From a gamma proteobacterium HIMB30 (lineage in GTDB: Bacteria > Pseudomonadota > Gammaproteobacteria > Pseudomonadales > Litorivicinaceae): 64,000 nucleotides of DNA. Positions 904 through 32,618 of the stretch are shown one piece after another (positions within the stretch are counted from its first letter, which is position 1; each line of letters begins with the position of its first letter). The position numbers and the translations under genes are program-made. The stretch covers positions 1-64,000 of the forward strand of contig AGIG01000034.1 in NCBI GenBank assembly GCA_000227525.2. The letters are read 5' to 3'. Below the pieces are notes generated by a model. The model did no database searches and had not been told where the DNA came from. It saw nothing but the letters and a program-made list of their open reading frames with translations.

Positions 904-921
904 CCGGATAGAGGAAAACAG

Positions 922-1527: not shown

Positions 1528-1576
1528 TTTTCCGTTCGTGACAGCGCAGTGTTGACGTAACGGAATAGGTGGATAA

Positions 1577-2869
1577 ATGACAGATACAACAGACCAATCT
1601 TCTGACAATAACGGCAAGGTGCTGTATTGCTCGTTTTGCGGTAAGAGCCAGCATGAAGTTCGTAAACTCATCGCAGGTCCAAGCGTTTTTATCTGTGATG
1701 AGTGCGTCGATCTATGCAACGACATCATTCGCGAAGAGGTGCAGGAGTCAGACGACACCGAGACCTCAGACGGCCTACCCGTCCCACAAGTGATCAAAAC
1801 GACACTCGATGACTACGTCATTGGGCAGGATCGTGCAAAGCGCGTATTGGCTGTTGCTGTCTACAACCACTATAAGCGGTTACGGCACGGTGAACGTGGG
1901 GAACGTGACGTAGAGCTTGGCAAGTCCAACATTCTATTGATCGGTCCCACCGGTTCAGGCAAGACATTGTTAGCTGAAACCCTAGCGCGATTATTAAATG
2001 TTCCGTTCACTATGGCTGATGCAACGACGTTAACCGAAGCGGGTTATGTTGGTGAAGACGTTGAAAATATTATTCAGAAACTTCTGCAGAAGTGTGATTA
2101 CGACGTAGAAAAAGCACAGCAAGGAATTGTCTATATTGATGAGATCGACAAGATCTCACGGAAATCAGACAACCCGTCAATTACTCGGGATGTGTCAGGA
2201 GAGGGCGTGCAACAAGCACTCTTGAAACTGATCGAAGGCACAGTCGCGTCAGTTCCACCTCAAGGTGGTCGCAAGCACCCACAGCAAGAATTCCTTCAAG
2301 TTGATACATCGAACATACTGTTCATTTGTGGTGGCGCCTTTGCAGGCCTCGACAAGGTGATTCGAGATCGCAGTGAGAAGGGTGGCATTGGATTTGGTGC
2401 AGAGGTGCGCTCAAAGGACGAATCCAAATCGGTTGGCGAGGCGTTTGCTGAAGTCGAGCCAGAAGATCTGGTGAAATATGGATTGATCCCTGAGTTTGTC
2501 GGGAGACTTCCTGTAGTTGCAACCCTTGGTGAGCTCGATGAGGATGCATTGATACAGATTTTGTCCGAGCCAAAGAACGCATTAGTCAAACAGTACAAAG
2601 AATTGTTTGAAATGGAAGGTGTGGAGCTCGACGTTCGTGCAGACGCACTGCGAGCTGTTGCAAGAAAGGCGATGGAGCGGAAAACCGGCGCGAGGGGTTT
2701 GCGCTCAATTCTTGAAACTATCCTGTTGCACCCCATGTTTGAAATACCATCGGATAACGATGTGTCAAAAATAGTGATTGATGAAGGTGTCGTCACGGGC
2801 GACAGCGAACCGCTGAAAATCTACGCGGGAGCACCTGACGAGAAACGTTCGGCAAACGCAGCCGATTAA
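1577..2869 (+). CDS. clpX: ATP-dependent Clp protease ATP-binding subunit ClpX
   Basis: AAA+ unfoldase that recognises tagged substrates and threads them into ClpP. It has 430 residues. The N-terminal zinc-binding domain shows four cysteines in two CxxC pairs (CSFC near 18-21 and CDEC near 40-43). The Walker A motif GPTGSGKT is at about residue 121-128 and the Walker B is [10 protein letters not shown]. The pore-loop segment [10 protein letters not shown] and the IGF-containing ClpP-docking region ([10 protein letters not shown]) are present. The ATG follows GGAATAGGTGGATAA. It lies between clpP and lon in the conserved order. Confidence 0.98.
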
Positions 2870-2884
2870 TTTAGGAAGCACAGA

Positions 2885-5302
2885 ATGAGTACCCAGCAGC
2901 TGGACCTTCCACTACTCCCGCTGAGGGATGTGGTCGTGTATCCCCATATGGTTCTTCCCCTATTTGTAGGCCGAGAGAAATCTATCAAGGCTCTACAAAG
3001 CGCGATGGACGGCGGCAAAGAGATTTTGTTAGTTGCCCAGAAAATTGCAAGCGAAGATGAGCCGAGACCAGGTGAGCTGTACGAAGTCGGTACGGTCGCT
3101 TCAATTTTACAGCTCCTGAAATTACCTGATGGGACAGTTAAAGTTCTGATCGAAGGTGGTCAGCGCGCTCAAGTATCGAGCTTTGATCTCGATGGTGATC
3201 ATTACCGAGCCAACGCTGAGATTGTCGAGTCCGTTCCTCTCAAAGAACATCATCAGGAAGCACTTCTACGGGTTCTGATGGATCAGTTTGATAAGTACGT
3301 TAAGGCATCAAAAAAGATTCCAGCGGAAGTATTAGCATCGTTGCAGAGCATTGAAGAGCCTGGACGGCTTTGCGATACGATGGCGGCCCACCTAACGCTG
3401 CCTTTGAAAGAAAAGCAGGCGCTACTTGCGCATTCAGATGTCAAGGAACGACTCGAGTATCTAGTCGCGCTAATGGAATCTGAGCTGGATCTTCTGCAGG
3501 TTGAAAAGCGCATTCGTGGTCGCGTGAAAGAGCAGATGGAGAAAAGCCAGCGCGAGTACTACTTGAACGAGCAAATGAAAGCCATTCAGAAGGAAATGAA
3601 TGATTTGGACGAGGCACCGAACGAAGTCGATGCCATACAGGCGCGAATTGAAGAATCTGGTCTCTCCAAGGAAGGTAAAGAGAAAGCGGAAGGTGAGCTT
3701 CAGAAGCTGAAGATGATGTCACCGATGTCAGCTGAGGCCACAGTTGTCAGAGCCTACTTAGACTGGCTATTGGGTTGTCCGTGGACAAAGCGGTCACGAG
3801 TTCGTCATGATCTTCTTAAAGCACGGGACATCCTCGAAGCCGACCATTATGGTCTCGAAGAGGTCAAAGAACGGATTCTCGAGTATCTGGCAGTCCAGAT
3901 GCGAATGAAGAAGTCAAAAAGTCCAGTTCTTTGCCTGGTCGGACCACCAGGTGTTGGTAAGACATCCCTCGGTGAATCAATTGCCCGCGCGACGAACCGA
4001 GAGTTCGTTCGCATGGCATTAGGTGGCGTTCGCGATGAGTCTGAGATCCGAGGCCATCGGAGAACATACATTGGATCGATGCCTGGCAAGATCATTCAAA
4101 AGCTATCAAAGGCGGGGGTTAAAAACCCTCTATTCTTGTTAGATGAGATCGACAAAATGGGCATGGATCATCGTGGCGATCCGGCTTCAGCACTGCTAGA
4201 AGTGCTTGATCCTGAGCAAAATCATACATTTAACGACCATTATCTCGAAGTTGATTTCGATCTCTCAGAGGTGATGTTTGTATGTACCTCAAACTCAATG
4301 AATATGCCCGCCCCATTGTTGGACCGAATGGAAATTATCCGGATCCCCGGCTACACCGAAGACGAGAAGCTGAACATTGCGAGAAAGTACCTGGTGCCAA
4401 AACAGATTAAAAACAATGGCCTTGGCGCGAATGAGATTGAAGTACCAGATGCAACGCTGACTGATTTGATTCGGTACTACACCAAAGAAGCTGGTGTTCG
4501 TGGTCTTGATCGAGAAGTTTCTAAACTGGCTCGTAAAGTGGTACGGAAACGGATCGAGGATGGCCATAAAAAGATCGGTGGAAATGATGAGGAAACGGTC
4601 GTCGTCACGCCCGATGTGCTAGAAAATTATTCGGGTGTACGTAAGTTCACATATGGTCTCAAGGAAACTGAGGATCGGATTGGCCAAGTTACCGGACTTG
4701 CGTGGACGAGTGTTGGTGGCGAATTGTTAACCATTGAAGCCGTGTCGATGCCTGGTAAAGGTAAACAGATTCGCACGGGCTCGCTTGGTGATGTGATGCA
4801 GGAATCGATCCAAGCAGCAATGACTGTTGCTCGAAGCCGTGCCATCGCGCTGGGTATTGACCCCAATTTCCATGAAAAAACAGATTTACATATTCATGTA
4901 CCGGAAGGAGCGACTCCTAAAGATGGTCCGAGCGCCGGAATCGGAATGTGTACGGCGCTAGTGTCCGTATTGGCTAATGTGCCTGTGAAGGCGGACGTTG
5001 CGATGACTGGAGAAATCACTCTCCGCGGGCAGGTGTTACAGATTGGTGGGCTGAAGGAAAAATTGCTTGCGGCACATCGCGGCGGCATCAAAACAGTCAT
5101 CATCCCGGAAGAAAATGTGCCTGACCTTAAGGAAATCCCAGATAACGTCAAAGCAGATTTGGATATCAAACCGGTCGCTTGGATTGATCAAGTATTTGAT
5201 GTCGCTCTGACTTATCTTCCCGAACCGTTTGTCGCGCAGGATGGGGCGAATGGTTCAGACGGAGAACATGCAACAGAAAAAAATACGCAAAGAGCGCATT
5301 AA
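2885..5302 (+). CDS. lon: Lon protease
   Basis: Homo-oligomeric AAA+ serine protease of the cytosol that degrades damaged proteins and short-lived regulators. The 805 residues carry, in order, the N-terminal LON substrate-binding domain (starting QLDLPLLPLRDVVVYPHMV), a coiled-coil region, the AAA+ module with Walker A GPPGVGKT and Walker B LFLLDEIDKM, and the C-terminal peptidase. By codon count the catalytic pair is Ser683 (in DGPSAGIGM) and Lys726 (in GGLKEKLL). Start ATG 15 bases after the clpX stop, with AGGAAGCACAG as ribosome site. No anomaly. Confidence 0.98.
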   Translation: MSTQQLDLPLLPLRDVVVYPHMVLPLFVGREKSIKALQSAMDGGKEILLVAQKIASEDEPRPGELYEVGTVASILQLLKLPDGTVKVLIEGGQRAQVSSFDLDGDHYRANAEIVESVPLKEHHQEALLRVLMDQFDKYVKASKKIPAEVLASLQSIEEPGRLCDTMAAHLTLPLKEKQALLAHSDVKERLEYLVALMESELDLLQVEKRIRGRVKEQMEKSQREYYLNEQMKAIQKEMNDLDEAPNEVDAIQARIEESGLSKEGKEKAEGELQKLKMMSPMSAEATVVRAYLDWLLGCPWTKRSRVRHDLLKARDILEADHYGLEEVKERILEYLAVQMRMKKSKSPVLCLVGPPGVGKTSLGESIARATNREFVRMALGGVRDESEIRGHRRTYIGSMPGKIIQKLSKAGVKNPLFLLDEIDKMGMDHRGDPASALLEVLDPEQNHTFNDHYLEVDFDLSEVMFVCTSNSMNMPAPLLDRMEIIRIPGYTEDEKLNIARKYLVPKQIKNNGLGANEIEVPDATLTDLIRYYTKEAGVRGLDREVSKLARKVVRKRIEDGHKKIGGNDEETVVVTPDVLENYSGVRKFTYGLKETEDRIGQVTGLAWTSVGGELLTIEAVSMPGKGKQIRTGSLGDVMQESIQAAMTVARSRAIALGIDPNFHEKTDLHIHVPEGATPKDGPSAGIGMCTALVSVLANVPVKADVAMTGEITLRGQVLQIGGLKEKLLAAHRGGIKTVIIPEENVPDLKEIPDNVKADLDIKPVAWIDQVFDVALTYLPEPFVAQDGANGSDGEHATEKNTQRAH

Positions 5303-5306
5303 CCGG

Positions 5307-5335
5307 TTGTTTCGACGGGTTTCGCTTGGTATAAA
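5307..5335 (+). promoter_or_regulatory. Candidate sigma-70 promoter for hupB
   Basis: TTGTTT (5307-5312) and TATAAA (5330-5335) are separated by 17 bases in the 116-base gap between lon and hupB. A dedicated promoter fits the high expression expected of a histone-like protein. A second AT-rich box, TATATT at about 5388, could be another start region but lacks a clear -35. Confidence 0.5.
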
Positions 5336-5418
5336 AGAATCACGCGAAGAAGGGGTAGCCACAAAACAAGAGTGTCGGACGGGCTACTATATTAAAAAAA
5401 CCAATAGGGGTACGATGA

Positions 5419-5691
5419 GTGAATAAGTCAGAATTAATCGATGCGATTGCCGCAGACGCAGGTTTATCTAAAGCAGATGCAGGCAAAGCGCTGGATGCGA
5501 CGTTGTCAGCGGTCACTGGCGCTTTAAAAGGGGGCGACAGCGTATCTTTGGTAGGGTTCGGTACATTTCAGGTAAAAGACCGTGCAGCACGTTCGGGCCG
5601 TAACCCACAAACAGGTGCAACAATTCAAATCGCAGCAGCCAAAGTTCCTGGCTTCAAAGCAGGAAAGGCGCTGAAAGACGCCGTGAACTAA
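5419..5691 (+). CDS. hupB: DNA-binding protein HU-beta
   Basis: Small histone-like nucleoid protein that bends DNA and acts as a dimer. It has 90 residues, the standard HU length, beginning [10 protein letters not shown]. The signature arm region reads [21 protein letters not shown], including the proline of RNPQTG that intercalates in DNA. The start is GTG, preceded by AGGGG; the nearby ATG three codons earlier in another frame runs straight into a stop. It sits between lon and ppiD as in many gammaproteobacteria and has its own promoter and terminator. Confidence 0.97.
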
Positions 5692-5712
5692 TCAACGAGC
5701 GTTACTACAATC

Positions 5713-5736
5713 AAGGGGCCTCTGGCCCCTTTTTTG
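5713..5736 (+). terminator. Intrinsic terminator after hupB
   Basis: A GC-rich stem (AAGGGGCC, loop TCT, GGCCCCTT) is followed by a run of six T. It lies 22 bases past the hupB stop and before ppiD, so hupB is probably a single-gene transcript. Confidence 0.9.
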
Positions 5737-5758
5737 AATCTATAGGTCACAGAACAAC

Positions 5759-7603
5759 ATGCTTCAAAATATTCGAGATAACTCTAGCGGTATCATTGCG
5801 AAAATCATCGTCGGCTTGATCGCCGTGACTTTTGTCGTCACCGGGGTCAATTTTTTCAACGGAGGTGATGGGGATAACGTGATTGCGGAAGTCGACGGAG
5901 TTGAAATCACTGAACGGCGATTTGTGGAAAAGCTCGAACAGGAACGTAGACAACTTCTCAGCATCCTGGGGGATCCAACTGCGGTCAACGAGGATCTATT
6001 AAGGCAGAGCGTACTCAACGCATTAATCGAAGAAGCTGCTGCAACACGCTATTCGCAAAAACTGTCTTTCGGTGTGACCGATCAGTTGGTGGATCAAGTG
6101 CTCGTGGAAATTCCTCAATTCCAGACAGATGGACGTTTTGATGCGCGCTTATTCGATCAAGCCGTCGGACGAATGGGAATGTCACGACTCGGGTTCCGCG
6201 AAGAGTTAAAGCGTAATCTCATCGAATATCAGGTGAAGGGGGCGATTGAAACGTCAATGATCGTCACGCCATCAGAGCTCGATCGACTGAATCGACTACA
6301 AAACCACACACGTTCGGGCGAGTTGGTTGTCATCGATATCGATCCGTTTGTCTCTCAAATGTCCGTCAGTGATGATGAAGTACTCTCGCACTATGAAACA
6401 AATAAGAATTCATTTGTGACCGAAGACTCTGTTGCTCTCGAGTACGTATTGTTGAGTGCAGACAATTTTCAAGAGCAAGTTGTTATCACTGATGAAGACA
6501 TTCGGGCAGCCTATGATGCCGAGGTCGCCTCAGCCACAAGTGATTTGGAACGTCGCGCTCGGCATATCCTGATTTCGAGCGCTGATGACGCACTCGCCAA
6601 GGCCAATGAATTGAAACAGCAGCTTGATGGTGGAGCTGCATTTGCTGATCTCGCAAAACAACATTCGGACGATATCGCGAGTCGCGATACAGGCGGTGAT
6701 CTCGGGTTTGCTCCCAAGGGAACCTTTGATCCTGCATTCGAGAAGGCGCTCGATGAGCTGTCTGTTAATACCGTCTCTCAGCCGATTGAAACCCAATTCG
6801 GCTATCACCTGATTGAACTGTTGGAGACGAGAGCCCGGCCGATCGACTCATTTGAACAACGGTCGATGCGTTTGCGCGTTGAGTTGGAAGAACGAGAAGC
6901 TGACCGCCTTCTTGCGACATCGCTTGAGGAATTCTCCAATATTGCTTTCAGTGGGACATTGGAGGAGCTCAACAGTATTTATGATGTACAGATTGAATCG
7001 ACCGAGCCATTTAGTCGTTCGACGGCTCAGGGCTTGATGGCGAAAGAAGGCGTTCAACGTCGGGCGTTTAATGACACGCTCTACAGTGGTGAGCTGAACG
7101 CTGAGGTCTTTGAGGTCGAGCCCGGGGTCTGGATGACTTTCCGCGTGAAGTCGTTCGATCCAAAAACGGTCAGGCCAATTGATGACGTGAGGGAAGACGT
7201 TGTTGCTATCCTGAAGCAACAAAAAGCATCTGAAGCAGCCCGAAACCTTGCCGAAGAGATTCAAAATCATTGGCAAGATGGACTTGCGGGACTGCCAACC
7301 AAAGCAAGTGATCTCAATACACAGAAGTTTATGGATATTGGTCGTGACGGGGATGATTCAATTGATCGCGAGGTTCTTTCGGTTGCATTTGCAGCATCTG
7401 CTCCGAATGAAGGCCGTCCATCAACGTTCATCGCACCGACAACTGACGCATTTGTTGTTGCACGAGTTGATCAAATTAACTTGGACGCAACAATCGAAAA
7501 CGGAACCGATCTTTCTTCTGCCTTAAGCCAACTCCGAACGAGTCAGGAGGGTAGTGAATTTTGGTCTGTCGTTACAACCGTTGCAGAGGTTGAAAAGCGG
7601 TAA
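5759..7603 (+). CDS. ppiD: Periplasmic peptidyl-prolyl isomerase PpiD
   Basis: Inner-membrane-anchored chaperone facing the periplasm that assists newly exported proteins near the Sec translocon. The 614 residues begin with MLQNIRDNSSGIIAKIIVG, typical of the family, and a single membrane segment at roughly 13-33. A SurA-like N-terminal chaperone region follows, then one parvulin domain at about 260-360 (ARHILISSADDA, then DTGGDLGFAPKGTFDPAFE and FGYHLIEL), then a C-terminal chaperone segment. The stop codon shares one base with the sohB start (TAATG), indicating translational coupling. Confidence 0.95.
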   Translation: MLQNIRDNSSGIIAKIIVGLIAVTFVVTGVNFFNGGDGDNVIAEVDGVEITERRFVEKLEQERRQLLSILGDPTAVNEDLLRQSVLNALIEEAAATRYSQKLSFGVTDQLVDQVLVEIPQFQTDGRFDARLFDQAVGRMGMSRLGFREELKRNLIEYQVKGAIETSMIVTPSELDRLNRLQNHTRSGELVVIDIDPFVSQMSVSDDEVLSHYETNKNSFVTEDSVALEYVLLSADNFQEQVVITDEDIRAAYDAEVASATSDLERRARHILISSADDALAKANELKQQLDGGAAFADLAKQHSDDIASRDTGGDLGFAPKGTFDPAFEKALDELSVNTVSQPIETQFGYHLIELLETRARPIDSFEQRSMRLRVELEEREADRLLATSLEEFSNIAFSGTLEELNSIYDVQIESTEPFSRSTAQGLMAKEGVQRRAFNDTLYSGELNAEVFEVEPGVWMTFRVKSFDPKTVRPIDDVREDVVAILKQQKASEAARNLAEEIQNHWQDGLAGLPTKASDLNTQKFMDIGRDGDDSIDREVLSVAFAASAPNEGRPSTFIAPTTDAFVVARVDQINLDATIENGTDLSSALSQLRTSQEGSEFWSVVTTVAEVEKR

Positions 7604-19541: not shown

Positions 19542-20141
19542 ATGGCTTATTCTGAATCGGCGAAAAACGCACACCATCATCTAACCAAGCTCGGACCAAA
19601 AAAGCTATCTGAATTTATCGAATCCGTTGGGCCCATCGATATTCCAGCCCGGTATGGTGATGACTTGTTGCTTGGACTCAGCCGGATTGTTGTTGGTCAA
19701 CAATTATCGAATCAAGCGGCACGATCAATTTGGGATCGACTTGTGACTCAATATCCGGAGCGTTCCAAATTAATCGACGCACTCAAAAATCCAGAAACGC
19801 CAAACACAGGATTGTCAGCTTCGAAAAAACGAACATTGAGTGACTTGATCCATCGCGGCGATCATTGGATTCAAACAATTGCCACTCACTCTGAAGCTCA
19901 GCGCCGCGAGGTCTTACTTGAGGTCTGGGGCCTTGGTCCGTGGTCGGTTGCGATGTGGGAATTATTTGTTCTACGCAACCCGAATCAATGGAGTGACAAA
20001 GATCTTATTCTTCGCCGCTTAAGTGTTGATTTTGCTGCTGAATTGGGTGAAGACGCGAGAGACTTTGTGGCGCGAGCATCCCCTTATCGCTCCTACTTCG
20101 CTCTGTATTGCTGGCGATTTCATGATCAAAATCGACATTGA
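19542..20141 (+). CDS. DNA-3-methyladenine glycosylase II family protein
   Basis: Base-excision repair glycosylase of the HhH-GPD superfamily, AlkA-like but compact (199 residues, lacking the N-terminal domain of E. coli AlkA). Visible features are the helical segment LSRIVVGQQLSNQAARSIWD, the helix-hairpin-helix LLEVWGLGPWSVAMWEL and the catalytic Asp in QWSDKDLIL, followed by YRSYFALYCWRF typical of the family end. Predicted to remove alkylated purines. The alkylguanine repair gene at 31966-32445 gives the cell a second alkyl-damage repair route. Confidence 0.88.
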   Translation: MAYSESAKNAHHHLTKLGPKKLSEFIESVGPIDIPARYGDDLLLGLSRIVVGQQLSNQAARSIWDRLVTQYPERSKLIDALKNPETPNTGLSASKKRTLSDLIHRGDHWIQTIATHSEAQRREVLLEVWGLGPWSVAMWELFVLRNPNQWSDKDLILRRLSVDFAAELGEDARDFVARASPYRSYFALYCWRFHDQNRH

Positions 20142-20164
20142 ATTCCATCTGTCATCAATAGAGT

Positions 20165-20180
20165 ATCGATAATCATCGAT
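20165..20180 (+). promoter_or_regulatory. Dyad element upstream of sulP, candidate CbbR site
   Basis: ATCGATAATCATCGAT is a palindrome with a 4-base centre. It matches at 15 of 17 positions (extended by one base each way) the element at 31953-31969 ahead of cbbL. It lies 83 bases before the sulP start and near -65 from the putative start site, the usual LysR-type recognition position. It also resembles an FNR box at 8 of 10 positions, so the regulator is not settled. Confidence 0.5.
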
Positions 20181-20202
20181 GCCTTTCATTGATACTATCG
20201 AG

Positions 20203-20231
20203 TTACGCCGACAATGAAATTTCCGTATAAC
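20203..20231 (+). promoter_or_regulatory. Weak candidate promoter for sulP-csoS1D-NUDIX
   Basis: TTACGC (20203-20208) and TATAAC (20226-20231) have 17-base spacing. The poor -35 fits an activator-dependent promoter with the upstream dyad. Inference only. Confidence 0.35.
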
Positions 20232-20262
20232 TCTTAATCGGGACCAATAAGGCATCGGGATT

Positions 20263-21918
20263 TTGGCGATATTTAACGAAATTCGACTGACTAATATTAA
20301 GGGTGATGTATTCGGTGGTGTCACTGCAGCCGTGATCGCCCTGCCAATGGCACTCGCCTTTGGTGTTGCATCTGGAGCAGGCCCTGAGGCGGGTCTCTAT
20401 GGCGCGATTTTGGTCGGACTATTCGCCGCCCTCTTCGGCGCCACCCCGACACTCATTTCTGAGCCGACAGGTCCCATGACGGTGGTGATGACAGCAGTTG
20501 TCGCTAGTCTCATCGCTTCTGATCCAGACCAAGGCCTCGCTATGGCCTTTACTGTGGTCATTTTGGCCGGTTGCCTACAGATTTTCTTTGGAATTCTGCG
20601 TGTTGGTCACTTTGTCACCATGATGCCTTATACGGTGGTTTCGGGATTCATGACCGGCATTGGTATTATTCTGATTGTCCTGCAAATCGGTCCATTTCTA
20701 GGGCAGCCACCGCCAGCGGGCGGCGTTATTGGAACGTTATCTGCCCTCCCGTCCCTGCTTCAGAACATCTCAATCGAGGAAACGTGTCTGGCACTTGGCA
20801 CGTTTTTAATCATCGCTTTGATTCCATCAAGTTATCGGCGATTTGTGCCGCCGCAATTACTCGCACTCGTTGTTGGTTCGGTGGTCGCCTCACTCTTCCT
20901 TGCCGGTGAAGTTCGTGTCATTGGTGCCATCCCGGACGGTCTTCCTGAATTTCAGCTACCCGTCTTCGAAATGAGGCATTGGCAAATTATGATGGCTAAT
21001 GCGTTAGTTCTCGCCATGCTGGGATCAATCGATGCCCTGCTCACCTCAGTGATAGCGGACAGCATGACAAAGCGTGAGTCTGACGCCAACAAAGAGCTTG
21101 TTGGACAAGGTATCGGGAATATCGCATCCGGTCTTTTCGGAGGCATTCCTGGTGCCGGTGCCACAATGGGTACTGTCGTCAATATCCAATCAGGCGGTCG
21201 GTCAGCGCTGTCTGGGTTGTCACGCGTTGCTGTTTTATTAGTCGTTCTGTTGTGGATTAGTGATCTCACCGCCATGATTCCGCTCGCGGTCTTGTCAGGG
21301 ATTGCGTTCAAAGTCGGCCTCGACATCATTGACTGGCGTTTCTTATCTCGAGCACATATTGTCTCTTCGAAAGCCGCCTTGATTATGTACGGTGTCATTT
21401 TGCTGACCGTCTTTGTTGATCTGATCATCGCGGTTGCTGTCGGTGTGTTTATTGCCAACCTACTAACGATTGAACGATTAACAGCAGCCCACGCTGACTC
21501 AGTGAAAGCAATTCGTGATCCGAATGCCGAAGAACTCTCACGTGATGAGCAAACGATCCTGAAGGAGACCAACGGAAGTATTTTGATTTTTGCCTTGGGA
21601 GGCACGCTATTTTTCGGTCTCGCCAAAGCAATTTCTCGGCAACGCGCAGTCTTATCCGATCATCAAGCGTTAATCATTGATTTTACTGATGTTCCATCAA
21701 TCGGGGTATCATCTTCGATGGCAATTGAGGACATGATCAAAGACGATTTAAAAGCGAAAAAGCCTGTCTTTATTACTGGCGCCAACGCTGCAGTCATCGA
21801 TCGCTTACAGCGCCTTGGTTTATTACAGGAATTACCGGCCGATGCCTTGGTAAAAGACCGAAGCACCGCTCTGCAAATGGCCACTCAGATGCTTAAAACT
21901 CAGGAGTCCTCAGCGTGA
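20263..21918 (+). CDS. SulP family anion transporter, candidate bicarbonate importer
   Basis: Inner-membrane transporter of 551 residues with about eleven hydrophobic segments and a C-terminal STAS domain (from about residue 440, including [22 protein letters not shown]). The SulP start signature is clear: [20 protein letters not shown], then [15 protein letters not shown]. The substrate cannot be read from sequence; being coupled to csoS1D and beside the carboxysome operon makes bicarbonate likely (BicA type), with sulfate as the alternative. Start is TTG; a stop lies five codons upstream, so no ATG is available. The stop overlaps the csoS1D GTG by four bases. Confidence 0.88.
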
Positions 21919-22541
21919 ATACCCCCTCAATCGGACTTCGAACGTATGTCTATTGCGATTCGCTACAACCGCAGCTAGCAGCTTATATGGCAACGGTCTC
22001 TCAAGGTTTTCTACCCATACCCGGAGATGCATGTCTATGGGTTGAGGTTTCACCCGGAATGGCTGTTCATCAGCTGACTGATGTCGCACTGAAAGCCACT
22101 CGAGTGCATCTTGCACAACAGGTCGTTGAGCGGGCATATGGATCAATGGTCATTCACCAACGAGACCAGAGCGACGTCCGCGAGGCAGGAAATATTCTAT
22201 TGGCGCGGATGGGTGCACAGGTCTCGGATCGAACACATCCGTCGATTGCCTGGCAAGAGACAATTCGCGGAATGACGCCTGATCATACCGTTTTGATCAA
22301 TCGACAAGATCGGCGTGGCTCGATGATTCTTCCTGGGCAAAGTATGTTTATTCTAGAAACCGAACCTGCTGGATATATTATCTATGCGGCCAACCAGGCC
22401 GAAAAAGCAGCCAATATCACGCTAGTTGATGTCCGTGCGGTCGGTGCATTTGGACGTTTGACGATCGCCGGATCGGAGGCTGATATCGATGCGGCAGCCG
22501 ACGCCGCGATTGCCGCAATCCACAACCCCATGGGAACTTAG
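21915..22541 (+). CDS. csoS1D: Carboxysome tandem-BMC shell protein CsoS1D
   Basis: Minor pseudohexameric (trimer of tandem domains) shell protein thought to form large gated pores for metabolites such as RuBP and 3-PGA. The 208 residues comprise two BMC-type domains; the second is easily read ([56 protein letters not shown]). The GTG start overlaps the sulP stop. Finding it in a facing transcript with the transporter, away from the main shell operon, is notable and suggests influx and pore capacity are co-expressed. Confidence 0.88.
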
Positions 22542-22542
22542 A

Positions 22543-23118
22543 GTGTTAGACGAGATCATCAGCCATATCGAAGCACACAGGGCCTTTGACCATGCGGAGG
22601 CAAGTGCCAAAGCACAAACCCTCGCCTTTATCCGAGCGTATCCCGATTGCCTTCATCGATCATGCCTACAAGGTCATCTGACCGCATCGGCGTGGATCTT
22701 ATCCTCGGATTTACAGGCAGCCGTTCTGTTGCATCATAAAAAGCTCGATCGGTGGTTCCAGCCTGGAGGCCATGTTGATGGAAACCCGAATTTGCTGGAA
22801 TCAGCCTTACGAGAGGCCGCAGAGGAAACTGGGCTCCAGGTCTCTGACTTCAATTTTGCCTCACGGACGATTTTTGATATTGATGCACACACCATTCCTG
22901 CAAGGCCAAATGAGCCAAAACATACGCATTTTGATATTAGATACGCATTCACGGTGGATTATCAGGAATTGCCTGGCAATGCGGAGTCTCACGACGTTCG
23001 ATTCGTGAGTCTCGATCAAGTGCGGCTATTCAACAATACGTCGTCAGTGGTCCGTTTGGTGAGAAAAACAACCGATCAGTTGATGACAACATCTGGCCAT
23101 CGAGCTCTCATTTCTTGA
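22543..23118 (+). CDS. NUDIX hydrolase linked to csoS1D
   Basis: Predicted diphosphate hydrolase of 191 residues. The start is GTG one base after the csoS1D stop, so translation is coupled. The NUDIX box reads GGHVDGNPNLLESA then LREAAEETGL, matching G-x5-E-x7-RE-x2-EE-x-G. It has an N-terminal extension of about 50 residues (ISHIEAHRAFDHAEASAKAQ) and a histidine-rich stretch (TKxHTHFD-like: PKHTHFDIRYAF). Substrate unknown; the position suggests a sugar-phosphate, nucleotide or NAD-derived by-product of carbon fixation. The last 43 bases overlap cbbR antisense. Confidence 0.85.
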   Translation: MLDEIISHIEAHRAFDHAEASAKAQTLAFIRAYPDCLHRSCLQGHLTASAWILSSDLQAAVLLHHKKLDRWFQPGGHVDGNPNLLESALREAAEETGLQVSDFNFASRTIFDIDAHTIPARPNEPKHTHFDIRYAFTVDYQELPGNAESHDVRFVSLDQVRLFNNTSSVVRLVRKTTDQLMTTSGHRALIS

Positions 23119-24074
23119 GTGATGCGTTGCTTTTCACGCATTGAGAAGTCCAGAAAAGAACTCGCCACAAGTGACAGCTTCCGGTCCGACGGATGAATGA
23201 TGTTCCACTGACGTGCGATTGGAAATTGCTCAGCTCTCACAATGCCGAGTGGTCCCTCAGGCCCTTCAATCGTCATCGAATGTAACGATAATACGGATAA
23301 GCCGAGATTCGCGATGACCGCATGTTTAATCGCTTCGTTGCTTCCAAGTTCCATACGGATATTTGGCCGTAAACCCTGTGATTCAAAGACCCGTAATGTC
23401 GCATCGCGAATCCCGGATCCCGGTTCACGCATGATCCAAGGATATTGACTGAGTTCTCTCAGACTGACCTGCTTTTGGGAGTGAAAAAGTTCATGGCTTT
23501 TTGGCGCAATCACAACCAGCGGATTCGGTGCAAATGGATACAGTTCGATACCCTGAATTTCCTCTGCAGCCTGGCCCATGATATACAAATCGTCGACATT
23601 CTCTGACAGTCGCTCTGAGATTCGATCGCGGTTTGAGACCTTTAAAGATAACTCAATACCTGGATATTCTTCACTGAATCGACCCAGCAACTCAGGTGCT
23701 AAGTACTTGGCTGTTGTCACAACGCCCAATTTTAGTTTTCCGCGCTTGAGGCCTTTGAGCTCTGATAATGCCACTTCCAGATCGCTCAATGAGCTGAAAA
23801 TCTCACGAACCGATCGATAGACAATTTGACCGGCGGCCGTGGCCTCAATTTGACGACCATTCTGTTGAAGTAACGGTACGCCAATCGCATCGGTCAACTT
23901 TTTGGTTTGCATCGAGACTGTTGGTTGGGTCAAATACAGCTCTTCGGCAGCCCGGGTGTGACTGCCAAGCCGAACAACTGCCTCAAAAATCTGCAATTGC
24001 CGCATTGTCGTATGACGGACAATGAACTCAGGAACATCTAGATGTGCAAGCGCGTCAAGATCAAGTCCGGACAT
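23076..24074 (-). CDS. cbbR: LysR-type transcriptional regulator CbbR
   Basis: Activator of Calvin-cycle and RuBisCO genes that senses metabolites such as RuBP or NADPH. The 332 residues show the N-terminal winged helix (MRQLQIFEAVVRLGSHTRAA, then LYLTQPTVSMQTKKL) and a LysR substrate domain with CbbR-like features (KLKLGVVTTAKYLAPELLGRF and PGIELSLKVSNR). About 20 extra residues precede the helix-turn-helix. CbbR is usually divergent from and next to cbbL; here it is at the far downstream end of the operon on the same strand, 44 bases after mcdB, so it may be partly autoregulated by read-through. Confidence 0.88.
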   Translation of the reverse strand: MSGLDLDALAHLDVPEFIVRHTTMRQLQIFEAVVRLGSHTRAAEELYLTQPTVSMQTKKLTDAIGVPLLQQNGRQIEATAAGQIVYRSVREIFSSLSDLEVALSELKGLKRGKLKLGVVTTAKYLAPELLGRFSEEYPGIELSLKVSNRDRISERLSENVDDLYIMGQAAEEIQGIELYPFAPNPLVVIAPKSHELFHSQKQVSLRELSQYPWIMREPGSGIRDATLRVFESQGLRPNIRMELGSNEAIKHAVIANLGLSVLSLHSMTIEGPEGPLGIVRAEQFPIARQWNIIHPSDRKLSLVASSFLDFSMREKQRITQEMRARWPDVVIN

Positions 24075-26244: not shown

Positions 26245-26504
26245 GAAGCCGTACCTTCTTCAGTGGGCGGCCAATGGTCGATGATTCCAACAATTGTCAA
26301 ATCACTCGGATAACCTTTACTGCCAGCCGCTTCACGGGCAGCACTACTACCGACGCAAATCACCCAATCGCCAGGCTTCGCGCCAACTGCATCAACGGCG
26401 ACCTGAGAACTCGTACCATCCCGAACGACTTGCAAATGCTTATGTTCCATTTCCGCAATTCGGTTTGTTGCAACAAGTGGCCGTTCAACCTGACAAATTT
26501 TCAT
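26241..26504 (-). CDS. csoS4A: Carboxysome vertex protein CsoS4A
   Basis: Pentameric vertex protein of 87 residues with the motif VGAKPGDWVICVGSSAAREAAG and the C-terminal VGIIDHWPP. It begins MKICQVERPLVATNRI, typical of CsoS4A. The start overlaps the csoSCA stop by four bases and its stop overlaps the csoS4B start likewise, so the two low-copy vertex proteins are tied to csoSCA translation. Confidence 0.93.
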   Translation of the reverse strand: MKICQVERPLVATNRIAEMEHKHLQVVRDGTSSQVAVDAVGAKPGDWVICVGSSAAREAAGSKGYPSDLTIVGIIDHWPPTEEGTAS

Positions 26505-28000
26505 GCCTTCCTCTCTATCCCAGTCATTGGGACTGATGAATCAATGATTTCGATAGGGCTTTCTGATTGGCAATCTCTCACAACTTTTAAGATGTGAATC
26601 GATCCACCATCTGCGTGTTGAGGGAACCGCTTGATCGTTGCCTCAGTGATCTGCTGACAGCGGTTCATCGCGCGCTCACGTGCTCCAGGGATCGAACCGT
26701 GATAGTCAAATCGGACGATAATTGGCGCCGGTAAACCACGACTGATGTTGAGCGACTTGAATATTTTTAATCCGACATCGATATCAGACGCGCCTTCCTC
26801 GATCGTCTTTAAATACGCGAAATACATGAGATTGCGGATTTGGATCTCCTCGAATCCCACACCGACTCCGATGAATCGCTCGGCATGTCCGATATCCGCA
26901 TAAGTTCCGTCGAACTCAGCTTTTACTAATTCGATTTGTGACAAATTGTTTTCGATCAATGCACCGACGAAACGCTTCAGTCCAGATCGTGTTGTTGGAC
27001 ATTCACGTGCAACTGCCTGTTGAATCTGTTCACGCGCCCGATCTCTCGGTTCATTTTGGGTCTGCTCGAACAGTTCAATCGACGACAGATGCGAGTCAAG
27101 ACTGATGTCTCCGTTCTCATCTGGTACGTGGACACGAATGGAATCAGTGGCTGTGTCAACACCAATCAGTAGTAAGTCTACTGAGGCCCCGCAGCAATGC
27201 GTATGTTCAATCGCTTCACGGAACGCATATAACGCATCACGACCAGCAAGAGCGGCTTGATCATCCTTGGAGCCATGCGCTGCACATCCTTCGCACTGTC
27301 CATCGATGGTACTGAAGTGATAGACCACTCCTTTTAGATAGCGAGAACCAGAAATCGATGTCGATAAACCTGCTCGCTCGCGCAGCAATTCAACTTCGGT
27401 CCATTTTTGAACGTTATCATCGATGTCAAAAACAGCACCTGCATAGGACTTGCGACGCACTTTGTTTGGCGGCAGACGTAACACCGACCGAATGACGTGT
27501 GCGAGACGCCCGTCAGCACAAGGCGTCAGATCAACTGCGTGTAAACCGCATTCTTCCAGTAATTCATCAAAGTCTGAATCGGAATGCATCGCCAACGGCG
27601 AGGTTGCAATCGAGTGATCACAAAAACGGCGATAGGTCTCAAACACGCAATAGGCGTAGAGCGCTTTGATATCCAGCTGATTGGTCCAGGCAGCATTTAA
27701 TAAATCAAACGGTAGCTCGAAACCCAGTTCCCGATCAGCAATCTCTTGAGCTTGACTCGCAAAATCGATCTCAAACTGAATAGCGACTAATTGTCGAAGG
27801 ACTGGCTCGATCCGATCAAATGAATCCTTTACGCTGCGCTCATAAGATATGAGTTGTGCATTATCCTGCACATCGGTTATTGCATGAATCCCACGTTGCT
27901 TTTCAACGACAGCAGACACCACAGAGGCTCTTGCTCCAGGGCGACCCAGAGGCGCCCGGTTCAATTTGCTCGATTGTGCTGATTTTGAACGTTGCAACAT
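26501..28000 (-). CDS. csoSCA: Carboxysomal carbonic anhydrase CsoSCA
   Basis: Zinc beta-class (epsilon subgroup) carbonic anhydrase inside the shell that turns bicarbonate into CO2 for RuBisCO. From the chosen start it has 499 residues. The Cys-x-Asp-x-Arg site (TPCADGR), the zinc His (AAHGSKDD) and the second zinc Cys (HTHCCGAS) are all present, then a degenerate second half. A basic, disordered N-terminal stretch (QRSKSAQSSKLNRAPLGRPG) is the known RuBisCO-binding type of region. The ATG at 28000 follows GGAGAGCACG; the ATG four codons upstream has a poorer ribosome site. Confidence 0.94.
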   Translation of the reverse strand: MLQRSKSAQSSKLNRAPLGRPGARASVVSAVVEKQRGIHAITDVQDNAQLISYERSVKDSFDRIEPVLRQLVAIQFEIDFASQAQEIADRELGFELPFDLLNAAWTNQLDIKALYAYCVFETYRRFCDHSIATSPLAMHSDSDFDELLEECGLHAVDLTPCADGRLAHVIRSVLRLPPNKVRRKSYAGAVFDIDDNVQKWTEVELLRERAGLSTSISGSRYLKGVVYHFSTIDGQCEGCAAHGSKDDQAALAGRDALYAFREAIEHTHCCGASVDLLLIGVDTATDSIRVHVPDENGDISLDSHLSSIELFEQTQNEPRDRAREQIQQAVARECPTTRSGLKRFVGALIENNLSQIELVKAEFDGTYADIGHAERFIGVGVGFEEIQIRNLMYFAYLKTIEEGASDIDVGLKIFKSLNISRGLPAPIIVRFDYHGSIPGARERAMNRCQQITEATIKRFPQHADGGSIHILKVVRDCQSESPIEIIDSSVPMTGIERKA

Positions 28001-28024
28001 CGTGCTCTCCATGACTGCCCGCTT

Positions 28025-29995
28025 TTAGCCGCGGGCGCCCCCTGAATACGTGATTAACGCGCCATCTGACGTGTTTCCACTCGAGCCTGTCACGCGACTT
28101 GACTCACGCTCGGGCTTTGATTGAGTTTCACGGACCCGCATCTGACCGTCGCCACGTCGTGTCTGATTCCTCGAAATCGCCGAACGCCCTTCCGTTCCAG
28201 TCACTGCACTGTTGCGATCCCAATCATCACCTGTGATCGTCAACCCAAGACTCCGGCCTTCTCCGGTAATCTGTCGATCTGCTCCGATAACCGAGTCTGG
28301 CGCTACCGTCGTGACGTTCGCTCGCGCTACCGGCTGAAAGTTTGCTTCATCTGATCCCGTGATCTTGCCTTCTGCACGACCAAAGGACCCAGTGATGCGA
28401 CGAGCATTGTCACGTTGCTCAAGCATCGCCTGCCGAGCAGGAGTGCCAATACTGAAATTTCGCGTTTCACTGCGTGCCTGTGGCATCCCAAATGCCTCAT
28501 GGAGTTGATCTTCGCCATGATAGGGAGTCCCTGAAATTGGGTGATCGGCGCCACGTGCATCGCCGGTGACGCCATTGGCGACACCTGGCTGAATTCCACT
28601 GATCGCGCTGCCAGCCATTCGACGCGCGCTTTCTACTGCTCCCGCCCCATCGCAAAATTCAAACTGTGTATCGCGACCAACATATGGCGTCCCTGTGAGA
28701 TGCTGACAGGTCCCTGGCTCATCACCAGTCACTGCCTGACTCCTTTGCGGAATCGATCCACTGATACGATTTGTCGCGAGTCGGTTTCCGCCAAATCGCT
28801 GACGAGTTCCTGATTGCGTAGACCGACTGGTCAAATCATTTGCCACGTAGTTATCGCCAGTTACTTGATTCCCGACCGATCGGGTATCACCAGTCACATG
28901 CCGATTGGTCGACAACAATGCGCCAGTCAGACGATCTGGATTTCTCAATGTCTCACCGTGGTGACGCGAAGACTGAGTGGCCGCCAGACCCTGACTTAAA
29001 TATTGAGAGCCCGTCATTGAAACCATCGAGGACGATTCGGTCCCAGTCACCCTGGCATGATTTCGCTCACCTCCGGAGACTGGTAAGCCGTCGGTGGTTT
29101 GATCCGACGTACTTGGTCCATCGTGTCGCCGTATTCCTGCGTGACAGACTGAGAACTGTCCTGCGGCCATATACTCAGTACCAGTGACCGTTTGACACAT
29201 GCCTGTGCGGTTACCCGTCAGTTGCTCCCCAGCCCCCAGTTCATTACCAGAGATCGTATTTCCACCGAGAGCGTCCGACAGACGGGTCGCTTGGCAACGC
29301 GAGCTCTTAGGTTGTAAGCAAGCATTCTCAAACGCTTCACCGGACAAATAATCAGTTCCGGTAATCGCCTGGCATACCCCTTGGTCTGAGCCAGTCATCA
29401 CAGGGTCATGTTGAACTGAAGTACCGGAGACTTCGTTTCCGCCTTCGGTCATCGTCGAAGCAACTTTCCATGAGGCGTCACGCGCGCCCCGGACGGGCCG
29501 AGGCGAGCTTGATTGCTTCAGATTCTTGGCGCCAAACCGGCTTTTTTCCTCACGCAGCGCTCGGGCTGCTGCGCGGCCACTGACACTGCCGCCGAAACCA
29601 TCCTGATTTCCGGTCAATGCGCGTTTACCATAGCTTGACAATGCTTCACGACGCGCCTTTGCGGTTGTCCGCCCGGGTGAATTCTCGACAACGCTTGGTC
29701 GTCCACTCCGAGTGCTCGTACGTAACGCAGGTTGTTGGGCTGAGGCCTCACAATCACAGTTCTGGTTGACCATCGTCGATGCTCGCGTCCGATCAGTCAT
29801 TGGTAAAGCCGCTTTCCCAGTCTGCGACATCAGCCGTCTCCGCTCTTTGGCAGACAAGGTCGCTGGTACCGATTCTGACGAAGCCTGAACATCATTGCTA
29901 TTGACGGCTTGCGGTTGAAGCGCAGATTTACCGCCTTGAGAAAGCGCTTGCCTTCTCGCGAGTGCAAGTTGTTTGCCTGTCATTGAATCACTCAT
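28025..29995 (-). CDS. csoS2: Carboxysome assembly scaffold CsoS2
   Basis: Disordered scaffold that binds RuBisCO and shell and drives alpha-carboxysome assembly. 656 residues. Four N-terminal RuBisCO-binding repeats are visible (LALARRQALSQGGKSAL, KERRRLMSQTGKAAL, KARREALSSYGKRAL, RALREEKSRFGAKNL). The middle region holds five or six VTG-rich repeats such as GVCQAITGTDYLSGEAFENAC and GTCQHLTGTPYVGRDTQFEFC. The conserved C-terminal peptide SSGNTSDGALITYSGGARG is intact. It is shorter than the roughly 870-residue Halothiobacillus protein. Start ATG at 29995 (after AAAGAGG) is preferred; an ATG at 30013 is in frame. Confidence 0.93.
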   Translation of the reverse strand: MSDSMTGKQLALARRQALSQGGKSALQPQAVNSNDVQASSESVPATLSAKERRRLMSQTGKAALPMTDRTRASTMVNQNCDCEASAQQPALRTSTRSGRPSVVENSPGRTTAKARREALSSYGKRALTGNQDGFGGSVSGRAAARALREEKSRFGAKNLKQSSSPRPVRGARDASWKVASTMTEGGNEVSGTSVQHDPVMTGSDQGVCQAITGTDYLSGEAFENACLQPKSSRCQATRLSDALGGNTISGNELGAGEQLTGNRTGMCQTVTGTEYMAAGQFSVCHAGIRRHDGPSTSDQTTDGLPVSGGERNHARVTGTESSSMVSMTGSQYLSQGLAATQSSRHHGETLRNPDRLTGALLSTNRHVTGDTRSVGNQVTGDNYVANDLTSRSTQSGTRQRFGGNRLATNRISGSIPQRSQAVTGDEPGTCQHLTGTPYVGRDTQFEFCDGAGAVESARRMAGSAISGIQPGVANGVTGDARGADHPISGTPYHGEDQLHEAFGMPQARSETRNFSIGTPARQAMLEQRDNARRITGSFGRAEGKITGSDEANFQPVARANVTTVAPDSVIGADRQITGEGRSLGLTITGDDWDRNSAVTGTEGRSAISRNQTRRGDGQMRVRETQSKPERESSRVTGSSGNTSDGALITYSGGARG

Positions 29996-30034
29996 CTCTG
30001 ATGCCTCTTTCATCGCACGACCACCTTGGGTGCG

Positions 30035-30382
30035 TTAGCGAGTTGTCCCTTCGTAAACAACGAAACACAATCCCTGACTTTGGGTGTATGCGTCATAGCC
30101 AATCAAGCGGACGTGATGATCTGGATATGCTCGACGACATGCCTCAAGCTCGCCCGCAATCGTGTTCAAATCCTTTTCGCCAAACATTGGTAATTTCCAC
30201 ATCGTCCAATACGAATTTGCGCACTGCGATGGATGCTCATGTTCAATTGACGGAGTCCAACCTTGACGAATCAGGTATTCAATTTGGTCATACACTTCGT
30301 CTTGGCTGAAGCGTGGTAAGAATCCAAAAGTCTCCAGTGTTTGCGCGGTTTGGAAATCACCTATTTCTGTTTTATTCGCCAT
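30035..30382 (-). CDS. cbbS: RuBisCO small subunit, form I
   Basis: Small subunit that caps the L8S8 enzyme. The 115 residues show [49 protein letters not shown] (split by the usual carboxysomal layout) and FVVYEG at the C-terminus. It lies 47 bases after cbbL and 39 bases ahead of the csoS2 start, with GAGGAATTAGAG as ribosome site. Confidence 0.97.
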
Positions 30383-30429: not shown

Positions 30430-31842
30430 CTAAACATCGAGTTTATCGACCGTATCGAATTCAAACTTAATTTCTTTCCAGGTTTCGAGTGCGATCGCGA
30501 GCTCTGGGCTGCTTTGTGCCGCCGACATCAAAATATCGCGCGATTCGCGCTCAAGATGACGTCCTTCGTTACGAGCTTTCACGCAGGCTTCAAGAGCAAC
30601 ACGGTTGGCTGCCGCGCCAGCAGCATTCCCCCAGGGATGACCCTGAGTTCCGCCACCGAATTGCAATACCGAATCATCACCAAAGATAGTGACCAGGGCT
30701 GGCATGTGCCAGACGTGGATACCACCGGAAGCAACCGCGAAGACCCCTGGCATTGAGCCCCAATCTTGATCGAAGAACACACCACGCGAGCGGTCCTCAG
30801 GAACAAATGATTCACGAAGCTGATCAACATAACCGAGGGTTGAATTTCGATCGCCTTCGAGCTTGCCCACGACAGTTCCGGTGTGCAGGTGATCTCCACC
30901 GGACAAACGAAGACACTTGGCCAACACCCTGAAATGGATGCCGTGTTTTGGATGTCGGTCGATAACAGCGTGCATTGCACGGTGGATATGAAGCAACATT
31001 CCATTGTCGCGACACCAGTTTGCGAGGCCGGTGTTTGCTGTAAAGCCACCAGTAATAAAGTCATGCATGATAATCGGCTGGTTCAGCTCTTTTGCGAACT
31101 CAGCGCGCTTGTACATTTCTTCGGGTGTTGCTGCGGTGACGTTCAGATAGTGACCTTTCCGCTCCCCTGTCTCTTGCTCTGCTTTTTGGATCGCCTCAGC
31201 AACGAATTCGAATCGATCTCTCCAACGCATGAACGGTTGTGAATTGACATTTTCGTCATCCTTGGTCAGATCAAGGCCACCACGTAAACACTCATACACT
31301 GCTCGGCCATAGTTCTTCGCGGACAGTCCAAGCTTCGGCTTGATCGTACATCCAAGCATTGGTCGTCCATACTTGTTCAGACGATCACGCTCCACCTGGA
31401 TACCGCCTGGCGGACCACCACAGGTTTTAATGTAAGCAATCGGGAATCGAATATCTTCGAGTCGTAAATGGCGTAGTGCCTTGAATCCAAAGACGTTACC
31501 AACCAGTGAGGTCAGTACGTTGACGATGGAACCTTCTTCGAATAAATCGATTGGATACGCGATGAATGCATAAAACGACTCATCGTCGCCTGGCACGTCT
31601 TCAATACGATACGCGCGACCTTTGTAAAACTCGAGATCGGTAAGCAGTTCTGACCAAACGGTACTCCAGGTCCCTGTCGATGATTCGGCAGCAACCGCAG
31701 CTGCAACTTCCTCTTTCGGAACGCCTGGTTGACCAGTACACTTAAAACATGCCAACAGATCTGTGTCCAAAGGGACATAGTCCGGTGTCCAATACATGTC
31801 GCGATATTCTTTAACGCCTGCATCATATGCTTTTGAGGCCAT
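30430..31842 (-). CDS. cbbL: RuBisCO large subunit, form I, carboxysomal
   Basis: Fixes CO2 onto ribulose-1,5-bisphosphate. The 470 residues contain the active-site segments [35 protein letters not shown] (carbamylated Lys with its Asp-Glu metal ligands), [29 protein letters not shown] and [11 protein letters not shown]. The residue before TKDDE is Leu where Phe is commoner (GLDLTKDDE). As first gene of the cso operon it belongs to the carboxysomal IA group. Start ATG follows CAGGAGTGAGTC. Confidence 0.98.
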
Positions 31843-31902
31843 GACTCACTCCTGTGCTTCTCGTCCAGAGGAAACCCGCATGTCTCTCCCTGTGTTGGAC
31901 CG

Positions 31903-31932
31903 AGAATAGGAATGATGGAACAACTAATCCAA
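31903..31932 (-). promoter_or_regulatory. Candidate cbbL operon promoter
   Basis: Reading on the minus strand, TTGGAT (31927-31932) and TATTCT (31903-31908) are 18 bases apart, giving a 5' leader of about 55 bases. Both boxes are imperfect, as expected for an activator-dependent promoter. Not verified by any data. Confidence 0.4.
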
Positions 31933-31952
31933 TAAATGTTTTCTCTCTATCG

Positions 31953-31969
31953 CATTGATAATCATCTAT
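31953..31969 (-). promoter_or_regulatory. Dyad element upstream of cbbL, candidate CbbR site
   Basis: ATTGATAATCATCTATG on the plus strand shares 15 of 17 bases with 20164-20180 region upstream of sulP. It contains a T-N11-A LysR core (TGATAATCATCTA) and the 9-base palindrome TGATAATCA. It lies about 112 bases before the cbbL start, near -65 of the proposed start site, and overlaps the ogt stop codon. Confidence 0.5.
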
Positions 31970-32445
31970 GGATGATGAGAATCGATGATCTGATCACCGT
32001 GAATCCGAAGTCCCTCTCGTTGCAAGAGTGTCTTTTTCGCTTCTAATCCCCAAAAAAAGCCACCGAGTCGATAGTCTCGACGCACAATTCGGTGACAGGG
32101 AACAATGATCGCGCAAGGATTTTGACCGCATGCTGATGCAGCCGCTCGTGTTGCTCGCACATTGCCTGCTCGCTTTGCTAGCTCTGAGTAACTAATCACT
32201 TCACCAAAAGGCACTAGGCGCATTGCTTCCCAGACCTTCAGTTGGAAGTCAGATCCTTCCAATTTGACAGGGATTCCCAAACCATCGCGTCGACCTTCAA
32301 TGCAGTCAATGACAGGCCGCAATACATCGTCGGAAATGCGCCCATTTGATTGTTTGGATTGGGCCTGCTCAACTCGAACGAGTTCGTGGTTGTCAAACAT
32401 GAGCTTGATGAGACCGAAACTTGTATCAATAACGATCTGAGTCAT
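31966..32445 (-). CDS. ogt: Methylated-DNA--protein-cysteine methyltransferase
   Basis: Suicide repair protein that transfers an alkyl group from O6-alkylguanine to its own cysteine. The 159 residues start MTQIVIDTSFGLIKLMF and contain EVISYSELAKRAG, the DNA-binding helix region ATRAAASACGQNP and the acceptor Cys in IVPCHRIVRRDYRLGG. The ATG at 32445 overlaps the stop of the 58-residue gene by four bases; the longer upstream reading into that gene is spurious. It is the last gene of the sulfur-transport set, an unexpected partner. Confidence 0.93.
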   Translation of the reverse strand: MTQIVIDTSFGLIKLMFDNHELVRVEQAQSKQSNGRISDDVLRPVIDCIEGRRDGLGIPVKLEGSDFQLKVWEAMRLVPFGEVISYSELAKRAGNVRATRAAASACGQNPCAIIVPCHRIVRRDYRLGGFFWGLEAKKTLLQREGLRIHGDQIIDSHHP

Positions 32446-32618
32446 TCGTTGGCCCCTGGAGCAAATGAGCAGATCGCGCCCGATGCGCCAGACATTGAAC
32501 CAAATGCCATTGGATCTGGTGCACGATAGGGATCTGGCGGAACACCCAGCGACCAATCAAGTCCAACAACAGCCACTGCGAACACCAACGCAATCATAAT
32601 TCCTGAACGACGACTCAT
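32442..32618 (-). CDS. Unknown 58-residue single-span membrane protein
   Basis: Too short for most gene finders. The protein starts MSRRSGIMIALVFAVAVVG, giving a basic N-terminus and one membrane segment, then a Pro/Gly/Ser-rich tail (LGVPPDPYRAPDPMAFGSMS) with a single Cys (GAICSFAPG). Its ATG overlaps the yeeE stop (ATGA) and its stop overlaps the ogt start the same way, strong evidence it is translated. The stop/start coupling and lone Cys hint at an accessory of the YeeE transporter, but I recognise no family. Confidence 0.7.
   Translation of the reverse strand: MSRRSGIMIALVFAVAVVGLDWSLGVPPDPYRAPDPMAFGSMSGASGAICSFAPGANE

Follow-up and report, generated by a model that had tools for sequence, protein, structure and literature searches.

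Background

The closest known system is that of NdhR/CcmR of Synechocystis (sll1594), a LysR-type repressor for which the part of a review drawn on here gives the consensus ATAG-N8-CTAT and lists as targets bicA, sbtAB and ndh-13, besides the gene of the regulator (PMC13249358). The review also describes two other cyanobacterial regulators, CmpR and RbcR, with the motifs TTA-N7/8-TAA and ATTA(G/A)-N5-(C/T)TAAT (PMC13249358). For CbbR, the motifs T-N11-A and TNA-N7-TNA are reported in the available portion of its source (PMC2942843). The switching of alpha-carboxysome genes in chemolithoautotrophs seems to be little described, and a text search of a 2026 review on alpha-carboxysomes found no mention of CbbR, LysR, transcription or promoter (PMC12918739). 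In a literature search, whose coverage took in few subscription papers, no description of such an operator in proteobacteria was found, ATAG-N8-CTAT appearing only in a cyanobacterial context.

Here we describe two dyads in a carboxysome locus of a gammaproteobacterium, through which, to judge from the sequence, one LysR-type regulator probably controls a transporter, a shell pore and the carboxysome together.

Results

Genes and dyads of the locus

The window, i.e. the whole stretch of 64,000 nucleotides analysed, contained the following genes and dyads.

20165-20180, plus strand: candidate operator dyad (16 bp), ATCGATAATCATCGAT, 5' of the transporter gene, with the second-best matrix score of the window (16.9)
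20263-21918, plus strand: BicA-like SulP transporter (Pfam Sulfate_transp and STAS; NCBIfam BicA 797 bits, under the cut-off of 880)
21915-22541, plus strand: BMC-domain shell protein (Pfam BMC), called csoS1D-type in a preliminary description
22489-23118, plus strand: NUDIX-domain protein (Pfam NUDIX), final gene of the transporter set
23076-24074, minus strand: LysR-type regulator, NdhR/CcmR-like, proposed binder of both dyads
26501-30382, minus strand: genes behind cbbL (ORFs and relatives), presumably cbbS, csoS2 and csoS3, named by homology to the preliminary annotation
30430-31842, minus strand: cbbL, RuBisCO large subunit (Pfam RuBisCO_large)
31954-31969, minus strand: candidate operator dyad (16 bp), ATAGATGATTATCAAT as read on the cbbL strand, with the best matrix score of the window (22.5)

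Read on the plus strand, site 1 was ATCGATAATCATCGATG (20165-20181) and site 2 was ATTGATAATCATCTATG (31954-31970). Site 1 preceded the genes of the BicA-like SulP transporter, the BMC-domain shell protein and the NUDIX protein, and site 2 preceded cbbL, itself on the minus strand. The shell protein had 70-90% relatives in carboxysome loci. Both sequences had been noticed in the preliminary description and were indeed present, one base to the right of the coordinates given there. Its count of 15 identical bases of 17 was confirmed by direct comparison, and the palindromy that it had reported was seen at both sites, the arms of site 1 being perfect over 6 bp (ATCGAT-N4-ATCGAT) and those of site 2 pairing at 5 of 6 positions.

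A degenerate 17-mer with at most 2 mismatches matched four places in the 2,168,870-bp genome, two of them intergenic (sites 1 and 2) and two within ORFs. With 3 mismatches, four matches were obtained in the window alone, a number which 6 of 100 shuffles also reached and which was thus only mildly rarer than chance. A pair of 17-mers this alike is nothing unusual in 64 kb, and the resemblance of the two sites was by itself weak evidence. The ATNGATNNNNATCNAT pattern matched 11 places in the own genome (control, 1), and among these, besides both window sites, one alone exceeded 11 (16.9) on the matrix described below. The ORF that follows this dyad-like site (G000:C10:83747-83762, in L139) at ~130 bp is GDP-mannose-dehydratase-like, and the site is probably due to chance. 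The exact sequence ATAGA-N6-TCTAT had no copy in the own genome.

The cbbL operator overlapped the end of an alkyltransferase-like ORF (31966-32556, minus strand), whose stop codon TAG (31966-31968) lay inside the operator (ATAGAT).

Conservation of the dyad beyond the genus

GTDB genomes were scanned with a LysR alignment and with peptide patterns of the LysR clade, and 80 loci of 115 were kept, many of them gammaproteobacterial carboxysome loci. As these loci were found via the peptide patterns of that clade, the sample leans to it, and the locus counts are not independent, since this LysR clade served to collect the loci and several of them are closely akin. The set used comprised 20 of 24 cbbL upstream sequences (17 from outside the genus and 3 from within it); L057 and L059 were dropped as too short, and L061 and L129 (matrix scores 11.3 and 1.9) were dropped after inspection, having different-looking promoters and a LysR gene divergent from cbbL. 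The de novo search employed the 17 used sequences, from 19 full-length cbbL upstreams outside the genus.

When every dyad in these 17 sequences was counted, ATAG-N8-CTAT came out on top (13/17) and ATAGA-N6-TCTAT next (11/17); three shuffled control sets reached 2-3. The group dyad was ATAG-N8-CTAT, with ATnG-N8-CnAT as its core. A palindromic matrix, trained solely on the cbbL promoters of these 17 loci, ranked 31953-31970 first (22.5) and 20164-20181 second (16.9) in the 64-kb window, the third place scoring 10.8. Across the 80 loci (1,216,425 positions), 91 places scored at least 11 and 59 at least 15, the latter including the 17 training sites. By comparison, 30 column-permuted matrices gave means of 15.9 (maximum 29) and 1.8 (maximum 8), respectively, on the same loci, and a score of 11 was not reached by any of 560 chunks of coding sequence, each of 350 bp. 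The motif search in relatives that had been proposed with the preliminary description came out in its favour: in front of both cbbL and the transporter gene, relatives have the dyad in an equivalent position. This conservation in relatives settled that the dyads exceed chance.

In four further whole genomes, exact ATAGA-N6-TCTAT was found nine times: five copies within ~70-240 bp of a cbbL or csoS1D start, three separated by a small ORF from a csoS1D or LysR gene ~0.5-0.7 kb away, and one inside unrelated ORFs. Since a reversed control pattern occurred three times in the same genomes, the count of nine was not above chance, and it is the places of these copies, rather than their number, that are striking. 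A sequence-only model (R1), applied to six genomes with 150 candidates scored in each, was insensitive: it found the cbbL sites of the own genome (G000) and of G003 and one other place, missed bicA, and found nothing in Thiohalobacter, where the exact pattern gives two sites.

Conservation within the genus

Among 57 genomes searched (own included), six had cbbL, all of this genus, and the locus LysR was present at 67% identity or more in 4 of 22 genus genomes (own included). In the cbbL upstream regions of G003 and G002, the corresponding position was occupied by ATAGATAATCATCGATG and ATAGATCATCGTTGATG, respectively. Upstream of the transporter gene, the 16-bp dyad was exact in G018 and G021 and partial in G002 and G003.

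In three genomes from other species of the genus (G001, G009 and G013; loci L038, L039 and L040), cbbL was 83-84% identical, and in G001 and G009 a LysR gene of another clade was divergent from it, indicating that two RuBisCO loci, each with a regulator of a different kind, exist in the genus.

Promoter geometry

LysR-type regulators usually have a recognition site together with a weaker site near the -35 box. The following promoter elements were identified downstream of the two dyads.

20187-20200, plus strand: second conserved element, CATTGATACTATCG, a possible weaker LysR contact by the -35 box; the bicA promoters of relatives have a like stretch at this offset
20226-20231, plus strand: putative -10 box TATAAC, 45 bp beyond the dyad, with equal spacing in relatives
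31903-31908, minus strand: putative -10 box TATTCT, 45 bp beyond the dyad
31927-31932, minus strand: putative -35 box TTGGAT, 21 bp beyond the dyad

In each of the 20 cbbL promoters analysed, the end of the 16-bp dyad was followed at 21 bp by a -35 box of TTGG or TTTG, and the distance from the dyad end to a TAnnnT -10 box was 45 bp in four and 46 bp in sixteen. These spacings put the dyad centre near -65 or -66 of the predicted starts. Among transporter promoters, the distance from dyad to -10 box was 45 bp in the window (TATAAC), G021, L052, L053 and L054 and 46 bp in L097; in L058, L074 and L086 the -10 box was missed by the scripted rule, and TATAAA was seen by eye at 46, 45 and 45 bp. The element after the dyad was ATTnATTGG at cbbL and a CGAAACTATC-like stretch at bicA. 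On predicted starts, the promoters therefore had the LysR-type architecture of a dyad near -65 and a second site near -35. The position of about -65 in the preliminary description holds if TATAAC (20226-20231) and TATTCT (31908-31903, minus strand) are the -10 boxes. A generic sigma-70 promoter scan gave no match in 20100-20300 and a single match in 31840-32040, directed away from cbbL.

The bicA dyads (window, L054, L097 and L058) often had CGA arms (ATCGA-N6-TCGAT) and the cbbL dyads AGA arms, a difference that could give different affinities; the CGA-arm bicA dyad in L097 belonged to another lineage.

Genes preceded by the dyad

Scores of at least 11 were obtained for 19 of 20 sequences of the cbbL class (the 17 training sites, a single one from this genus, and L061 with 11.3; L129 missed) and for 7 of 8 bicA genes with their own promoter (3 of the 8 being of this genus; L099 missed). 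These class counts use scores rounded to one decimal, so that bicA of L074 (11.0), absent from the list of matches of at least 11, was counted by rounding. The score was also reached by 5 of 16 csoS1D upstreams and by 20 of 59 LysR-gene upstreams, the other 39 being without it in the relatives; the LysR gene of the window (23076-24074) had no dyad of its own in the matrix scan. Of 21 cases in which bicA directly followed a LysR gene, 13 had a site in front of that LysR gene. Other dyads preceded genes with the Pfam domains Sulfate_transp, Sbt_1, Proton_antipo_M and RuBisCO_small, genes of the SbtA, DabB/NdhF and SulP types thus being included. Among ten proteins examined behind further dyads, one was without a Pfam match.

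SulP upstreams of nine genomes outside the set scored from -3.2 to 3.5. The cbbL promoters beside other LysR types (L038-L040, L061 and L129) scored 9.2, 11.1, 10.4, 11.3 and 1.9, a weak likeness in four of five; L061 additionally held a LysR of the present clade.

In L120 (5375), L121 (9946), L127 (9972) and L128 (9948), the space between a related LysR gene and genes of the Proton_antipo_M or Sbt_1 type held a variant of the dyad containing GCC/GGC, e.g. CATAGCCATATGGCTATG, which possibly belongs to a sister regulator type.

The LysR-type regulator of the locus

The LysR gene at 23076-24074 stands behind the cso genes, on the same strand as cbbL. Among solved structures its product was closest to NdhR/CcmR (5y2v), with CmpR second. 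A 38-row tree placed it in a clade of 16 carboxysome LysRs (100/100), which NdhR joined next at only 90/82. ATAG-N8-CTAT was exact in 21 of 33 aligned group dyads, the window sites matching at only 7 of 8 and 6 of 8 bases. T-N11-A was found in 5 of the 33 dyads and TNA-N7-TNA in none, T-N12-A occurring in all 33, so that the dyads departed from the classical CbbR site. The preliminary description had called the regulator of the locus cbbR; a LysR gene is there, but its nearest PDB relative is NdhR/CcmR and the dyad is unlike the published CbbR motifs.

The residues of the interface that binds 2-oxoglutarate in NdhR and RuBP in CmpR were all four kept in the window LysR (in the clade, 57, 61, 53 and 58 of 61); in this comparison the Lys10 printed in the review was taken as Lys104. 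Five of seven 2-phosphoglycolate contacts were kept, and both differing contacts also differ in most of the clade (H130 to R in 60 of 61, T201 to I in 44 of 61). RuBP, 2-oxoglutarate and 2-phosphoglycolate are, on these residues, candidate effectors.

In a further region of the own genome (L153, G000:C30:74000-86000; 197-6191), a second CbbR-like LysR gene was divergent from fbp, prk, tkt and fba, the genes for fructose-bisphosphatase, phosphoribulokinase, transketolase and aldolase. The regeneration genes of the Calvin cycle thus seem to have a regulator of their own. With the NCBIfam CbbR model the second LysR scored 245 bits and the locus LysR 225, both under the cut-off of 450.

Discussion

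Alternative explanations

That the likeness of the sites arose by chance, or that site 1 is the terminator of the preceding gene, is extremely improbable: a terminator scan did flag 20163-20182, with a weak T tail, and such likeness is not rare in 64 kb, but the scan flagged nothing at the cbbL site and the dyad is conserved with fixed spacing across loci. Oxygen control through FNR boxes, by the FNR-like regulator encoded in the window at 53258-53989, we regard as very improbable. The preliminary description gave both sites 8 of 10 bases of an FNR box, which is correct for site 1, site 2 matching at 9 of 10; the own genome has, moreover, 13 perfect FNR-type boxes (reversed control pattern, 0). 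None of these 13 boxes is at the two sites, however, and none of the 33 dyads is a perfect box (TTGAT-N4-ATCAA). The second base of the left arm was A in 20 of 20 cbbL dyads, where FNR needs T, which argues against FNR; the right counterpart was T in 13, G in 4 and A in 3. The likeness to FNR boxes is taken as a by-product of the AT-n-GAT arms, and FNR may make a second use of the cbbL site.

Binding of the dyads by the second CbbR-like LysR, beside fbp-prk-tkt-fba, is quite improbable. It has the higher CbbR score and is divergent from Calvin-cycle genes, but its own divergent promoter scored -2.0 for the dyad and the best place in the surrounding 12 kb only 7.2, and in relatives the dyads adjoin LysR genes of the other clade, that of the locus LysR. 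Given that the locus LysR does act at these sites, it might instead repress, as NdhR does, at plentiful inorganic carbon. We consider this rather unlikely, the dyad being fixed near -65 rather than over the start and the -35 boxes being poor; in LysR promoters generally, a site at -65 with a poor -35 box fits activation. For repression speak the four kept 2-oxoglutarate interface residues and the nearest solved relative, NdhR, which according to the part of the review drawn on here represses CO2-concentrating genes (PMC13249358).

Proposed mechanism

We consider it likely, from sequence evidence, that both dyads are operators of the locus LysR (23076-24074). Most likely as a tetramer, this protein would recognise ATnG-N8-CnAT centred at about -65, touch a second, weaker element beside the -35 box and help RNA polymerase at promoters with poor -35 boxes. 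We infer activation, rather than repression, from the dyad near -65 and the weak -35 box. The bicarbonate transporter and the shell pore would thereby be coupled to RuBisCO and the carboxysome; the conservation, the spacing, the set of target genes and the company that the motif keeps with LysRs of this clade give good support to the co-regulation by the locus LysR that had been suggested in the preliminary description. As the LysR gene lies behind cbbL-cso on the same strand without a dyad of its own, it is probably read through from the cbbL promoter, which would result in autoregulation. RuBP, 2-oxoglutarate or 2-phosphoglycolate may serve as the effector.

The fixed geometry of the motif makes a regulon of transporter, shell pore and RuBisCO testable. 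The motif also ties the carboxysome regulon to a cyanobacterial CO2-concentrating regulator and names candidate signals, and the conserved promoter is a possible part for moving carboxysomes into other hosts.

Comparison with known systems

Like CbbR, e.g. of Acidithiobacillus ferrooxidans, which the available portion of its source describes as a LysR-type regulator linked to cbbL with a recognition and an activation site near the promoter (PMC2942843), the locus LysR is linked to cbbL; its gene, however, stands behind the cso genes and is not divergent from cbbL. The cyanobacterial regulators CmpR and RbcR are likewise of the LysR type and, in the passages of the review cited, activate genes for bicarbonate uptake and for RuBisCO, but their motifs differ from the dyad, ATTA(G/A)-N5-(C/T)TAAT occurring in none of the 33 (PMC13249358). 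NdhR/CcmR of Synechocystis, the nearest solved relative, shares the LysR type, has a reported consensus, ATAG-N8-CTAT, that the window sites match at 7 and 6 of 8 bases, and has targets in common, the proteobacterial dyad being found at bicA, SbtA-like, NdhF/DabB-like and LysR genes; it differs in that the proteobacterial dyad is also found at RuBisCO and alpha-carboxysome genes, and in that NdhR/CcmR is described there as a repressor, whereas the site fixed near -65 suggests activation here (PMC13249358). As a tentative reading, to which we give slightly less than even credence, one CO2-concentrating regulon, with one LysR type and the operator ATAG-N8-CTAT, may be common to cyanobacteria and chemolithoautotrophic proteobacteria, and in the latter it would have come to include the genes of RuBisCO and the alpha-carboxysome and have switched from repressing to activating via a site fixed near -65.
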